A DNA stretch of 42,968 bases from contig CP070689.1 of NCBI GenBank assembly GCA_020353155.1, positions 1,994,339-2,037,306 on the forward strand, written 5' to 3'. The position numbers and the translations under genes were made by a program. Each line of letters opens with the position of its first letter. Position 1 is the stretch's first letter. A model generated the notes under the pieces. That model made no database searches and was not told the origin of the DNA. It saw nothing but the letters and a program-made list of their open reading frames with translations. This DNA comes from Deltaproteobacteria bacterium. Lineage in GTDB: Bacteria; Desulfobacterota; Syntrophobacteria; BM002. Of this stretch, positions 3,451 through 39,010 are shown in pieces.

Positions 3451-3534
3451 CACTAGGCACTAGGAACTAAGCACTAGGCACTGAGAAGATTGCGGATTTC
3501 GGATTGATTGAACTCTATGCTCCATGCCCTATGC
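3451..3534. repeat. Degenerate heptamer tandem repeats, three words
   Basis: Three consecutive runs share a 7-base period but differ in word: CACTAGG-like units at 3451-3485 (five units), ATTGCGG/ATTTCGG units around 3490-3510, and CTCTATG-CTCCATG-CCCTATG at about 3514-3534. The order ATTTCGG word then CCCTATG word is the same as at 38888-38940, and its reverse complement occurs at 31175-31240. Compared with those copies this one is shorter by one heptamer. Confidence 0.85.
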
Positions 3535-7306: not shown

Positions 7307-8563
7307 GTGGAATCAGAAAAGTTGAGAATCGCAATGCTAAGCGTCCATTCAAGCCCCATAGGCGAACTGGGGACGAAAGACACGGGAGGTATGAGTGTTT
7401 ACGTCCGGGAGCTTGCTCGGGAACTTGGAAACCGCGGTCATATGGTGGACATTTATACCCGTCTGAACGGCTCCAGACAAAAGCAAATAACTCGACTGTA
7501 CGAGAAAGTTCGCCTTATACATCTGAGGGCCGGAAACAACGGCCACATAAACAAATTGGCCCTTTATGGCCATCTTGATGACTTCTTTAAGGAGCTGGAA
7601 AGATTTAGAACCCGTCAGTCTCTCCACTATGATCTCGTACACAGTCACTACTGGTTGTCCGGGAGAGTAGGGAAGTGGGCCCAGGAAAGCTGGGCAGTTC
7701 CGCACGTTTTCATGTTCCATACTGTTAGTGCGGTGAAGAACATTACAGTGGGGTCTGAGAAAGAACCGGAACTGCGCACGGCTACGGAGAAGAATTTGGC
7801 AAGAAACTGCGACCGCATACTGGTGGCCACAGATAAGGAAAGAGGCCATCTGATCAACCACTACGAGGCATCCCCTCAGAAGATCGGTGTAGTTCCCTGT
7901 GGGGTAAATCTGGATCTTTTCAGCCCATGGGACAGGGCGAAGGCTCGGCAGAAACTGGGGTTTGCTCAAGATGAATCGATTGTCTTGTTTGTCGGTAGGT
8001 TTGCCCCTTTAAAGGGAATAGACAGGTTGATGGAGGCCATGTACCATTTGCAGCACCATAAGCGGTTAAGATTAGTAATTGTCGGTGGCGACGGCACTAA
8101 CACCCCGGAGTTTCAAGGACTCCAAAAACTGGCTCGGAATTTTGGCATTCAGGAGAGCGTTACTTTTGCTGGTAGGATAGAGCAAGATAACCTGCCAGCC
8201 TACTACAGTGCCGCAGACGTTCTAGTCGTACCTTCTTACTATGAAAGCTTCGGGCTCGTAGCGCTGGAGGCCCTGGCTTCCGGAACTCCGGTGGTAGCAA
8301 CTAAAGTTGGGGCCATGGAGAGTATTCTAAAGGAGGGTAAAACCGGACACGTGGTGAGCAATGGTTCGCCCCGTTTGCTGGCAAAGAGTATAGAAAAGTT
8401 TATCTCAGGTTCGAATGGCTTGTCGGCCCATGAGGTTAGAGCATCAGTTCTTAGTTATAGCTGGGCAAATGTGGCAGCCGCCATGCTTGACCAATACGCG
8501 GCAGTGCTTAGAGCATGGGATTTTCACAGTTTCTGCTGCTGCGGAAAAGTCTCGATGCTTTAG
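7307..8563 (+). CDS. GT4 glycosyltransferase, MshA/sucrose-phosphate-synthase-like
   Basis: A 418-residue GT-B fold glycosyltransferase of family GT4. The start is GTG at 7307, with GGAGAGG about ten bases upstream. The N-terminal domain has DTGGMSVYVRELARELGNRG, the glycine-rich donor/acceptor loop typical of MshA and sucrose-phosphate synthase relatives, then VHSHYWLSG. The C-terminal domain has VPCGVNLDLF, ILFVGRFAPLKGIDRL-type spacing (IVLFVGRFAPLKGIDRLMEA) and the retaining EX7E nucleotide-sugar site in VPSYYESFGLVALEALASGT. Only ten bases separate it from the PIG-L deacetylase gene. In mycothiol and bacillithiol synthesis a GT4 enzyme adds GlcNAc and a PIG-L enzyme deacetylates it, so a GlcNAc-transferring role is a reasonable inference, though no Cys ligase is seen nearby. 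Confidence 0.9.
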   Translation: MESEKLRIAMLSVHSSPIGELGTKDTGGMSVYVRELARELGNRGHMVDIYTRLNGSRQKQITRLYEKVRLIHLRAGNNGHINKLALYGHLDDFFKELERFRTRQSLHYDLVHSHYWLSGRVGKWAQESWAVPHVFMFHTVSAVKNITVGSEKEPELRTATEKNLARNCDRILVATDKERGHLINHYEASPQKIGVVPCGVNLDLFSPWDRAKARQKLGFAQDESIVLFVGRFAPLKGIDRLMEAMYHLQHHKRLRLVIVGGDGTNTPEFQGLQKLARNFGIQESVTFAGRIEQDNLPAYYSAADVLVVPSYYESFGLVALEALASGTPVVATKVGAMESILKEGKTGHVVSNGSPRLLAKSIEKFISGSNGLSAHEVRASVLSYSWANVAAAMLDQYAAVLRAWDFHSFCCCGKVSML

Positions 8564-9272: not shown

Positions 9273-9274
9273 GA

Positions 9275-9345
9275 GGCATGGAGCATGGAGTATAGAGTAA
9301 TTCAATTTGTTTTTTACTCTATGCTCTCTGCCCTATGCCCCATGC
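9275..9345. repeat. Palindromic heptamer repeat between convergent genes
   Basis: The left arm at 9275-9300 (GGCATGGAGCATGGAGTATA then GAGTAA) and the right arm at 9314-9345 are imperfect reverse complements, both built of heptamers of the CTCTATG/CCCTATG/CCCCATG word. The right arm touches the TAG stop of the MBL hydrolase gene and the left arm begins three bases after the TAA of the deacetylase gene. The predicted long hairpin with a T-rich loop (ATTCAATTTGTTTTTT) lies between two convergent genes and could end transcription from both sides. Confidence 0.75.
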
Positions 9346-9983
9346 TAGCCTGCCCACACAACATCTCCGTGGAGTTCCGGATCTGTTGGCCGTTTGGAAA
9401 ATACCTCATATAACTTCTTTTCCCTGCCTATTGTCGTGGCTTCGCCATGGCCAGGATACACCTCAGTGTCGTCCGGCAGGCCGAATAGCTTTTCAGTGAT
9501 TGATTTAACAATTTGGCGGAAGTCATTGGCTGTCTGGGTTTTGCCTGGTCCTCCGGGAAACAAGGTATCGCCTGCAATCAGATAATTCCCTGCGAGAAAA
9601 CATATGCTCCCCCCTGTGTGTCCCGGGGTATGTAATGCTTTAAGCTTTAAGCGGCCGAGGGATATTTCATCTCCGTGATTTAGCAACAGATCAACAGTCG
9701 CCGGTAAATCGCCTGCTTCTGCAAGGTGAGCGGCAACCGGGATATTGAGGGCCGATTTTAGCTCGGCCAGTCCACCAATATGATCAAAATGGCCGTGGGT
9801 CATCAGGATATACTGAGGGCGAGTCTTGTTCAGTTGGGCCAAGACCAGGTCCACATCCCCAGGGGCATCTACAACCACACTCTCATTTGTTTTTGGGCAA
9901 ATGAGGATATATGAATTAGTTCCGAAAGGGCCTATTTCAAGCCTGTATATTTGAATGTGCTCATTTTTAACGACTGTTATCAT
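9345..9983 (-). CDS. MBL-fold metallo-hydrolase, glyoxalase II-like
   Basis: A 212-residue metallo-beta-lactamase-fold hydrolase. It has the metal motif THGHFDH (62-68), TPGHTGGS with His122, a GDTLFPGG block with Asp139, and YPGHGE near residue 188: the full dinuclear zinc ligand set of the GloB-like hydroxyacylglutathione hydrolase / persulfide dioxygenase-related group. The N-terminal GTNSYILIC strand fits the same group. The ATG at 9983 is preceded by GGAGAG. Cytosolic thioester hydrolysis is likely; I cannot tell the substrate. It is followed downstream by the palindromic repeat and lies in the same orientation as the HAD gene, with a REP pair between them. Confidence 0.9.
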   Translation of the reverse strand: MITVVKNEHIQIYRLEIGPFGTNSYILICPKTNESVVVDAPGDVDLVLAQLNKTRPQYILMTHGHFDHIGGLAELKSALNIPVAAHLAEAGDLPATVDLLLNHGDEISLGRLKLKALHTPGHTGGSICFLAGNYLIAGDTLFPGGPGKTQTANDFRQIVKSITEKLFGLPDDTEVYPGHGEATTIGREKKLYEVFSKRPTDPELHGDVVWAG

Positions 9984-18678: not shown

Positions 18679-18699
18679 TGGTAAACTCCACATTTGAGA

Positions 18700-18780
18700 A
18701 GATAGGAGATAGGAACCAGTAGCTAGTAGATCTAGATTGTTGTTTTTGTTCTTCTCTCCTGGATTCTGACTCCTGACTCC
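18700..18780. repeat. Heptamer repeat region
   Basis: GATAGGA-GATAGGA-ACCAGTA-GCTAGTA units (from about 18703) are followed by TCCTGGA-TTCTGAC-TCCTGAC-TCC units (about 18758-18780). The second word is shared with 31246-31290. It fills the gap between the Nudix and SpoIIE genes and ends at the phosphatase stop codon. Confidence 0.7.
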
Positions 18781-31097: not shown

Positions 31098-31170
31098 GGT
31101 TTCTCCATTGTGGGGTGTTTAAAGTTGTTATTCCCATGGTGCATAGCAAAGAGCGCACAGGGTCGATGGC

Positions 31171-31345
31171 TTGAGGCATAGGGCATGGAGCATAGGGCAT
31201 AGGGTCAAAACAATCCGCAATCCGCAATCCCAAATCCGCAATCTGTCCTCTGATCTCTGACTTCCGACCTCTGACCTCTAATCCAGTCTCGCCCGACCTC
31301 CCGTCTCGCCGTTTCTCCGACTCCCCGGATCGTCCCGCTGTGCCA
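31171..31345. repeat. Composite heptamer repeat between sucA and sucB
   Basis: Consecutive heptamer runs: GGCATAG-GGCATGG-AGCATAG-GGCATAG (31175-31202), AATCCGC-AATCCGC-AATCCCA-AATCCGC (31212-31239), CCTCTGA-TCTCTGA-CTTCCGA-CCTCTGA-CCTCTAA (about 31247-31281), then CG-starting octamers up to about 31340. The reverse complement of 31175-31216 equals 38899-38940 at 40 of 42 bases. Located inside the sucA-sucB-lpd operon. Confidence 0.85.
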
Positions 31346-32793: not shown

Positions 32794-32799
32794 CTATCA
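32794..32799 (-). other. Tandem in-frame stops TGA TAG inside sucA
   Basis: On the minus strand the codons read GTA TGA TAG CGG CGC TAT GGG, translating Val-stop-stop-Arg-Arg-Tyr-Gly. The E1 family has Leu-Val-(Cys/Ser)-Tyr-Arg-Arg at this place. A change of one base in each codon (TGC or TGT to TGA; TAT or TAC to TAG) explains both stops without any frameshift. On the plus strand ATAGCG-C-CGCTAT at 32785-32797 is a perfect palindrome that includes both altered bases. Confidence 0.95.
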
Positions 32800-34087: not shown

Positions 34088-34197
34088 CCCTTGTAAAATG
34101 TCTAAAGCGATCTAAAATGTCTAAAATGTTCTAAAATGCCTAAAGTGCATAAAATGAAAAATACTTACAAATCAATCCCAAATCGTCAATCCGAAAT
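34088..34197. repeat. Nonamer and heptamer repeats upstream of sucA
   Basis: TCTAAAATG-type units (TGTCTAAAA, TGTTCTAAAA, TGCCTAAAG, TGCATAAAA) at 34092-34155, then, read on the minus strand, GATTTCG-GATTGAC-GATTTGG-GATTGAT heptamers at 34170-34197. The first word recurs at 38202, 38992 and 40291; the second at 3490, 20912 and 38888. Confidence 0.8.
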
Positions 34198-38198: not shown

Positions 38199-38371
38199 CG
38201 AAAATGCCTAAAGTATACGAACGGTAATGAGTTTCAGCAGGCAGTGGGAAGGAAGAACTTGGAGTAGTGGAGTAATGGAGTACTGGAGTAATGGAAAAGC
38301 CAAAAACATAAAAATACTTCGATTCGAGGCTTTCTTCAACACTCCAACACTCCAATACTCCAACACTCCAT
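38199..38371. repeat. Octamer palindrome between nuoBCD and nuoE
   Basis: AAAATGCCTAAAGT at 38202-38215 is the nonamer word. Then GGAGTAGT-GGAGTAAT-GGAGTACT-GGAGTAAT-GG (38261-38294) is followed by about 45 bases and by CACTCCAA-CACTCCAA-TACTCCAA-CACTCCAT (38340-38371). The two arms are imperfect reverse complements of each other. The last repeat unit ends in AT and together with the next G makes the ATG of nuoE at 38370. Confidence 0.88.
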
Positions 38372-38873: not shown

Positions 38874-38881
38874 AAGTCCAT

Positions 38882-39009
38882 TTGAGATTTTGGATTTCGG
38901 ATTGTTTTGACCCTATGCCCCGTGCTCCATGCCCTATGCCTGGAGCCATCCACGCTATGGGCTCTGCGCTATGCGCCATGCGGTGACAACTTCAGACACT
39001 TTAGGCATT
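38882..39009. repeat. Composite heptamer repeat between nuoE and nuoF
   Basis: TTTTGGA-TTTCGGA units, TTGTTTTGA, then CCCTATG-CCCCGTG-CTCCATG-CCCTATG (38911-38938), then CTATGGG-CTCTGCG-CTATGCG-CCATGCG (about 38954-38981) and finally the inverted nonamer word (CACTTTAGGCATTT, about 38997-39010) just before the nuoF start. 38899-38940 matches the reverse complement of 31175-31216 at 40 of 42 bases. Confidence 0.88.
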
Positions 39010-39010
39010 T

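Follow-up and report, generated by a model that had tools for sequence, protein, structure and literature searches.

The 42-base composite found in both the sucA-sucB gap and the nuoE-nuoF gap is probably the arm and joiner of a short inverted heptad repeat, one of a genus-wide intergenic class that is copied whole between gaps. The best reading of this class is REP/MITE-like, a variant of known heptamer repeats such as the GGGAATC repeats of Xanthomonas. Its units have a recurrent geometry, are dispersed, are present or absent as whole units, take part in the turnover of gene gaps, and are homogenised within a genome.

The window is the whole stretch of 42,968 nucleotides that was analysed. 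The genome it comes from (G000) comprises 3.21 Mb and is 89% complete; the relatives used are draft genomes. Base-by-base reading covered a 443 kb sample of this genome, taken as stretches and with home-made gene calls. The nearest named records to the window are two Deltaproteobacteria MAGs, L063 (JAJDNB010000122.1) and L064 (CP070735.1), which match the relatives G004 and G006 at the suc locus.

The shared composite and its cassette

The features discussed below are as follows.

31175 to 31216, minus strand: 42-base composite of the last GATT unit, a T-rich joiner and four CTATGC units (C-type arm); 40/42 to 38899-38940
31115 to 31235, minus strand: entire 121-bp cassette between sucA and sucB, stopping short of the sucB start; 82.6% to 38880-39000
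31198 to 31216, minus strand: first copy of the joiner GGATTGTTTTGACCCTATG, exact, one of two in the genome
38880 to 39000, plus strand: full 121-bp cassette in the nuoE-nuoF gap, containing the 42-base match at 38899-38940 (from alignment)
38899 to 38917, plus strand: second copy of the joiner GGATTGTTTTGACCCTATG, exact, the other of the two
38953 to 38982, plus strand: second cassette array, GCTATGC type, a direct pair with the first array (tandem repeats)
38988 to 39010, plus strand: 9-base leader array of TTTAGGCAT type, immediately before the nuoF start; a genus-wide leader (read from the letters)
31211 to 31243, minus strand: GGATTGC array, CAATCCG on the plus strand (tandem repeats)
31242 to 31279, minus strand: GTCAGAG array, TCTGACC on the plus strand, then a GAGACGG array (tandem repeats, self-comparison)
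3488 to 3534, plus strand: third, looser copy, with a GATT array, a joiner with 4 differences and three CTATGC units (alignment and sequence)
9273 to 9346, no strand assigned: complete element of GGCATGG arm, spacer GAGTAATTCAATTTGTTTTTTACTC and CTATGCC arm (sequence and inverted-unit analysis)
18691 to 18779, no strand assigned: 89-bp arm-spacer-arm element, preceded by a stop codon and followed by the ribosome-binding site of the next gene; the relative G009 has 1 bp there

The first-pass annotation reported 40 matching bases out of 42 between 38899-38940 and the reverse complement of 31175-31216. Recomputation returns the same figure, and the match extends beyond the 42 bases both ways, so that 31115-31235 (minus) and 38880-39000 (plus) align over 121 bp at 82.6% identity. 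A whole-genome search recovers the same pair over 101 bp at 85% (E 1.3e-26). Among the matches from the 443 kb that were listed and inspected, this pair is the top-scoring heptamer composite; the pairs that score higher are all at least 172 bp and lie outside the individually inspected set. Pfam identifies the flanking genes as sucA-sucB and nuoE-nuoF, as had been proposed. The downstream genes sucB and nuoF lie on the minus and plus strands respectively, and each composite reads in the sense of the gene behind it. The difference in strand follows gene direction and is uninformative.

The joiner GGATTGTTTTGACCCTATG is a real, shared, non-repetitive part of the composite, as the annotation held. 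It has exactly two sites in the 3.21 Mb genome and no other site with up to 3 mismatches, while its reversed control has 3 sites at that tolerance. Because the joiner occurs twice and nowhere else, common words alone are insufficient to explain the 31175/38899 match; they account for much of it, though not all. The third copy, at 3501-3534, keeps the order with one unit fewer, as claimed, but the 19 bases of its joiner, GGATTGATTGAACTCTATG, include 4 differences, which makes this copy looser than was implied.

The T-rich joiner is a variant form of the sequence that edges the CTATG arm on its inner side. The motif TT-N(0-3)-ACY precedes 19/50 CTATG arrays, and stands before 0.6% of single CYATG words. 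A GATT array lies just upstream of only 5/50 CTATG arrays. The GATT-joiner-CTATG order is thus found in the copies but does not hold as a general rule; it is one of several partnerships, and the 42-base composite is the inner edge and C-arm of an inverted unit in which a GATT array replaces the usual partner.

The 9-base TTTAGRYAY-type arrays (38988-39010 and 34094-34156 in the window) are possibly part of a leader. They lie within 50 nt before the start of a same-strand gene in 14/22 intergenic cases, and in 3/20 in the opposite orientation.

Abundance and placement of heptamer arrays

The CTATGC-array pattern CYMTGCNCYMTGCNCYMTG has 202 matches in the genome and 0 in the reversed control. 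Nine other members of the genus have 77-622 matches each, again with 0 in every reversed control. Sister genera seldom have the pattern, and its distribution in distant families (G066, G071, G074) is patchy; G138 and G291 are also array-positive. A stricter 26-base pattern has matches in 14/395 genomes of the phylum. CTATGC is one of about 60 heptamer classes in the 443 kb. Period-7 runs number 154 in this sample versus 0 in a Markov shuffle, with 18 runs of period 8 and 13 of period 9; period 7 is dominant both here and in the distant families G066, G071 and G074. A search of the open literature found no paper that describes arrays of this kind from Deltaproteobacteria.

By the home-made gene calls, 208 of 226 arrays (92%) are intergenic, in a sample of which 17.7% is intergenic. 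Arrays occur in 22/55 convergent gaps, 72/272 codirectional gaps and 10/59 divergent gaps, and their positions within gaps are skewed toward the upstream stop, that is, toward gene 3' ends. The arrays thus have a REP-like placement: intergenic, 3' of genes and scarce in divergent gaps.

Geometry of arms and units

Among CTATG chains, those with 3/4/5 units number 15/30/5 in the genome, 16/46/8 in other genus members and 4/22/3 in distant genomes, the last sampled where CTATG arrays were already known. The copy number therefore peaks at four in all three sets and does not decay broadly, within counts that begin at three units because two-unit arrays are uncountable with the method used. Measured independently of the word, the median array length of common words is mostly 28-34 bp. 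Neighbouring arrays are convergent, a G-rich arm followed by a C-rich arm, in 82 cases versus 13 opposite, the pairs being partly non-independent. Both facing arms often share one word; the median length of such same-word units is 88 bp, and most of their spacers measure 10-30 bp.

Arm complementarity is 0.818 within hairpins versus 0.830 between different hairpins of the same word. Pairing no better within than between hairpins means that it is either unselected or constantly overwritten by copying. Maintenance of the stem by compensatory change is rejected on the same ground. A G-quadruplex as the common principle is also rejected, since the positions that vary among units fall within the G runs and several words have none; frequent words such as GAGCATA, AAATTCG and AAATGAG have no conserved G run, judged from sequence only. 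Two facing period-8 arrays in the window, at 38260-38295 and 38337-38370 (TGGAGTAC and CAACACTC, 4.5 and 4.2 copies), have the same geometry with an 8-base unit.

These measurements bear on independent slippage, in which common heptamer words would grow where they stand by replication slippage, with 7 nt as a favoured slippage length, and the two copies would come to match through the small number of words. In many bacteria, long simple repeats are most often heptamers, and the proposed cause is a polymerase contact of 7 nt (reported in PMC4679880 and PMC4692102). Copies do differ by whole heptamers, as the first-pass annotation stated: the nuoF and sucA copies of G006 differ in length by exactly one. 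Longer arrays, of up to 17 units, exist, so slippage does occur. Free slippage as the main source of the arrays is not supported, because the unit number peaks sharply at four with no fall-off and the arrays are ~30 bp whatever the common word. Nor does it account for the convergent polarity, for non-repetitive joiners and loops common to several loci, or for units of 68-89 bp that are present or absent as blocks. Independent slippage is by now largely refuted, through the shared joiners, and we consider it very improbable.

Dispersal and turnover

Self-comparison reveals dozens of 50-120 bp composites common to distant gaps, with non-repetitive joiners and loops. There are 51 non-coding gap-to-gap pairs of at least 60 bits, many spanning several words. 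Of these, 15/51 lie less than 30 kb apart versus an expected 12.8%; proximity is a modest bias, and purely local copying is rejected since large distances separate most copies.

The suc and nuo gaps of comparable genus members hold differing arrays, even in G009, where the neighbouring genes are 88-92% identical. Two clean empty sites are available, with gain versus loss unpolarised by an outgroup. In the first, the 89-bp arm-spacer-arm unit at 18691-18779 is absent from G009; in the second, a 68-bp unit in G004 is absent from both G000 and G009. Neither has a clear target-site duplication, the mark of MITEs of DDE transposons, in empty-site sequences that are ~15% diverged. Separately, G009 (contig C305, locus L227, 14956-15150) has a 195-bp palindromic MITE-like element with CCCG/CGGG ends and a 3-bp TAG duplication, located at a stop codon; its empty site in the window's genome is at 8560-8563.

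The 121-bp cassette precedes nuoF and sucB in G000 and sucA in G009. In G006 it precedes nuoF and sucA, and two more copies adjoin nuoF within the nuo region. Within G006, the nuoF and sucA copies, which lie 530 kb apart, are 92% identical and the nuo2 and nuo3 copies 89%, whereas the orthologous nuoF cassettes of G006 and G000 are 77% identical. Paralogs closer than orthologs imply recent copying or conversion between gaps. With the many composites that carry joiners, this upholds the proposal that ordered multi-word units are copied from gap to gap, and the dispersal of array units and cassettes is supported. Gene gaps in this genus turn over more quickly than the genes on either side.

The positions of the cassettes could also suit an RNA regulatory leader: as a conserved part of the mRNA ahead of nuoF, sucB and sucA, the cassette would coordinate genes of energy metabolism, with gene conversion homogenising its copies. 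All cassettes with an identified downstream gene (in G000, G006, G009 and G003) are in the sense orientation before nuo or suc genes, and they end in the 9-base array adjoining the start codon. Relative to shuffles, folding is also more stable in array gaps, with a mean z of -1.95 against -0.80 in the remaining gaps. However, a folding asymmetry between sense and antisense that is specific to array gaps is absent, and RNA-level selection via G-U pairs is rejected for this reason. Moreover, the cassette is missing from the orthologous gaps of close relatives, most arrays are elsewhere in the genome, and Rfam has no family match in the window at gathering thresholds. A regulatory leader is accordingly an improbable account of the cassette.

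Mobilising enzymes and proposed mechanism

The first-pass annotation suggested a RAYT or IS200-like transposase as a possible mover. A REP/REPIN-type element moved by such a Y1 transposase would insert as a hairpin without target duplication, which fits the hairpin form of the units, their intergenic sites 3' of genes and the lack of a clear target duplication; at least one Y1_Tnp is present in 9/10 genus genomes. However, G007, which is richest in arrays (622 matches, 95% complete), yielded no Y1_Tnp. The single Y1_Tnp found in the window's genome (L249, 1456-2430, 324 aa) has no heptamer arrays at its flanks, where an inverted repeat of its own, GGGGTCAGGCATAACTAATTAACTATTGAC, lies instead, and the arrays comprise about 60 words without a fixed REP-like consensus. 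Transposition of this kind is quite unlikely. RVT_1 is absent from the window's genome and from six others, and a reverse transcriptase (retron or DGR) was rejected as the mover on this basis. Mobilisation by RAYT or by reverse transcriptase is not supported, and no mobilising enzyme was found for the arrays.

The account that we favour is of inverted heptad repeats copied whole between gaps. Each arm has ~30 bp in four units, all variants of a single 7-base word. Arms usually face each other in twos, alike or different in word, as a unit of ~65-110 bp in total: a G-rich arm, a spacer of ~10-30 bp and a C-rich arm. Units lie between genes, for the most part behind stop codons, and both whole units and multi-array cassettes would be copied from gap to gap, replacing or joining the older contents. 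Copying with replacement would cause gaps to turn over faster than genes and the copies within a genome to grow alike. The copies at 31175 and 38899 would then be two products of leader-cassette copying among suc and nuo genes.

The copying may proceed via single-stranded or hairpin intermediates, by ectopic template switching, gene conversion or some mobilising enzyme, with heptamer gain and loss superimposed on the copying of foldback DNA. The absence of a reverse transcriptase, a poorly fitting Y1, pairing that is not maintained and folding that is not strand-specific together favour foldback template switching or conversion, or some other enzyme. The elements appear to be mostly tolerated rather than selected.

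Comparison with known repeat systems

REP/BIME and REPIN elements are small intergenic inverted repeats that lie behind genes, avoid promoter gaps and are copied as units with no clear target duplication. The arrays described here share their placement and unit copying, but have no single conserved palindrome per genome and no linked RAYT was found. The STRR heptanucleotides of filamentous cyanobacteria occur as several short arrays dispersed in one genome. They resemble the present arrays in being dispersed, short and heptanucleotide; we know of no fixed four-unit arms or cassette copying among STRRs.

The GGGAATC and GGGGA(C/T)T repeats of Xanthomonas and Nostoc are intergenic, mostly have four 7-base units and lie nearer the 3' end of the upstream gene (PMC4692102). 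They often form convergent pairs (70-75 cases), and the genes that carry prominent repeats differ from one related species to the next; the same work also mentions three tandem heptanucleotides from Calothrix (PMC4692102). Like the Xanthomonas and Nostoc repeats, the arrays here are tandem, 7-base, mainly intergenic, typically of four units and paired convergently. Unlike those repeats, which use a single G-rich word per lineage, they use about 60 words, many without G runs, and form ordered multi-word cassettes with shared joiners and loops. The TAACTGA repeats of Beggiatoaceae are intergenic heptamer direct repeats in 169 sets, with a patchy distribution across phyla (PMC4679880). Both they and the arrays here are patchily distributed intergenic heptamer repeats, but TAACTGA is one exact word, repeated directly, right upstream of start codons, whereas the arrays here have degenerate words, inverted pairs and a position mostly behind stops.

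A broader possibility is a non-autonomous element defined by its geometry and not by its sequence, with two facing four-heptamer arms of word-independent size. Besides this genus, it would occur in distant families of the same phylum and, going by the literature, in Xanthomonas. A novel enzyme or mode of replication, one that repeats a 7-base word some four times before doubling back, would both make and spread it. We hold this to be doubtful. Heptamer repeats were formerly ascribed to polymerase slippage, word by word; a four-unit convergent geometry, whatever the word, in unrelated lineages, together with gaps that have or lack whole units and copies made alike within a genome, calls for a specific generating or moving process, which is testable by comparison of close strains.

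Additional observations

Period-7 arrays with other words are present in other phyla too (L077, L088, L134 and L065, from Planctomycetota, Pyrinomonadaceae, Acidobacteria and Olavius Delta 3). In L077, GGTAAAAAGTAAAAAG and CTTTTTACCTTTTACC arrays face each other.

The sucA gene of the window has two adjacent in-frame stops (TGATAG) at 32794-32799 on the minus strand, where seven genus relatives encode Cys-Tyr. This double stop is either a recent lesion in the gene or an error in the assembly's consensus.
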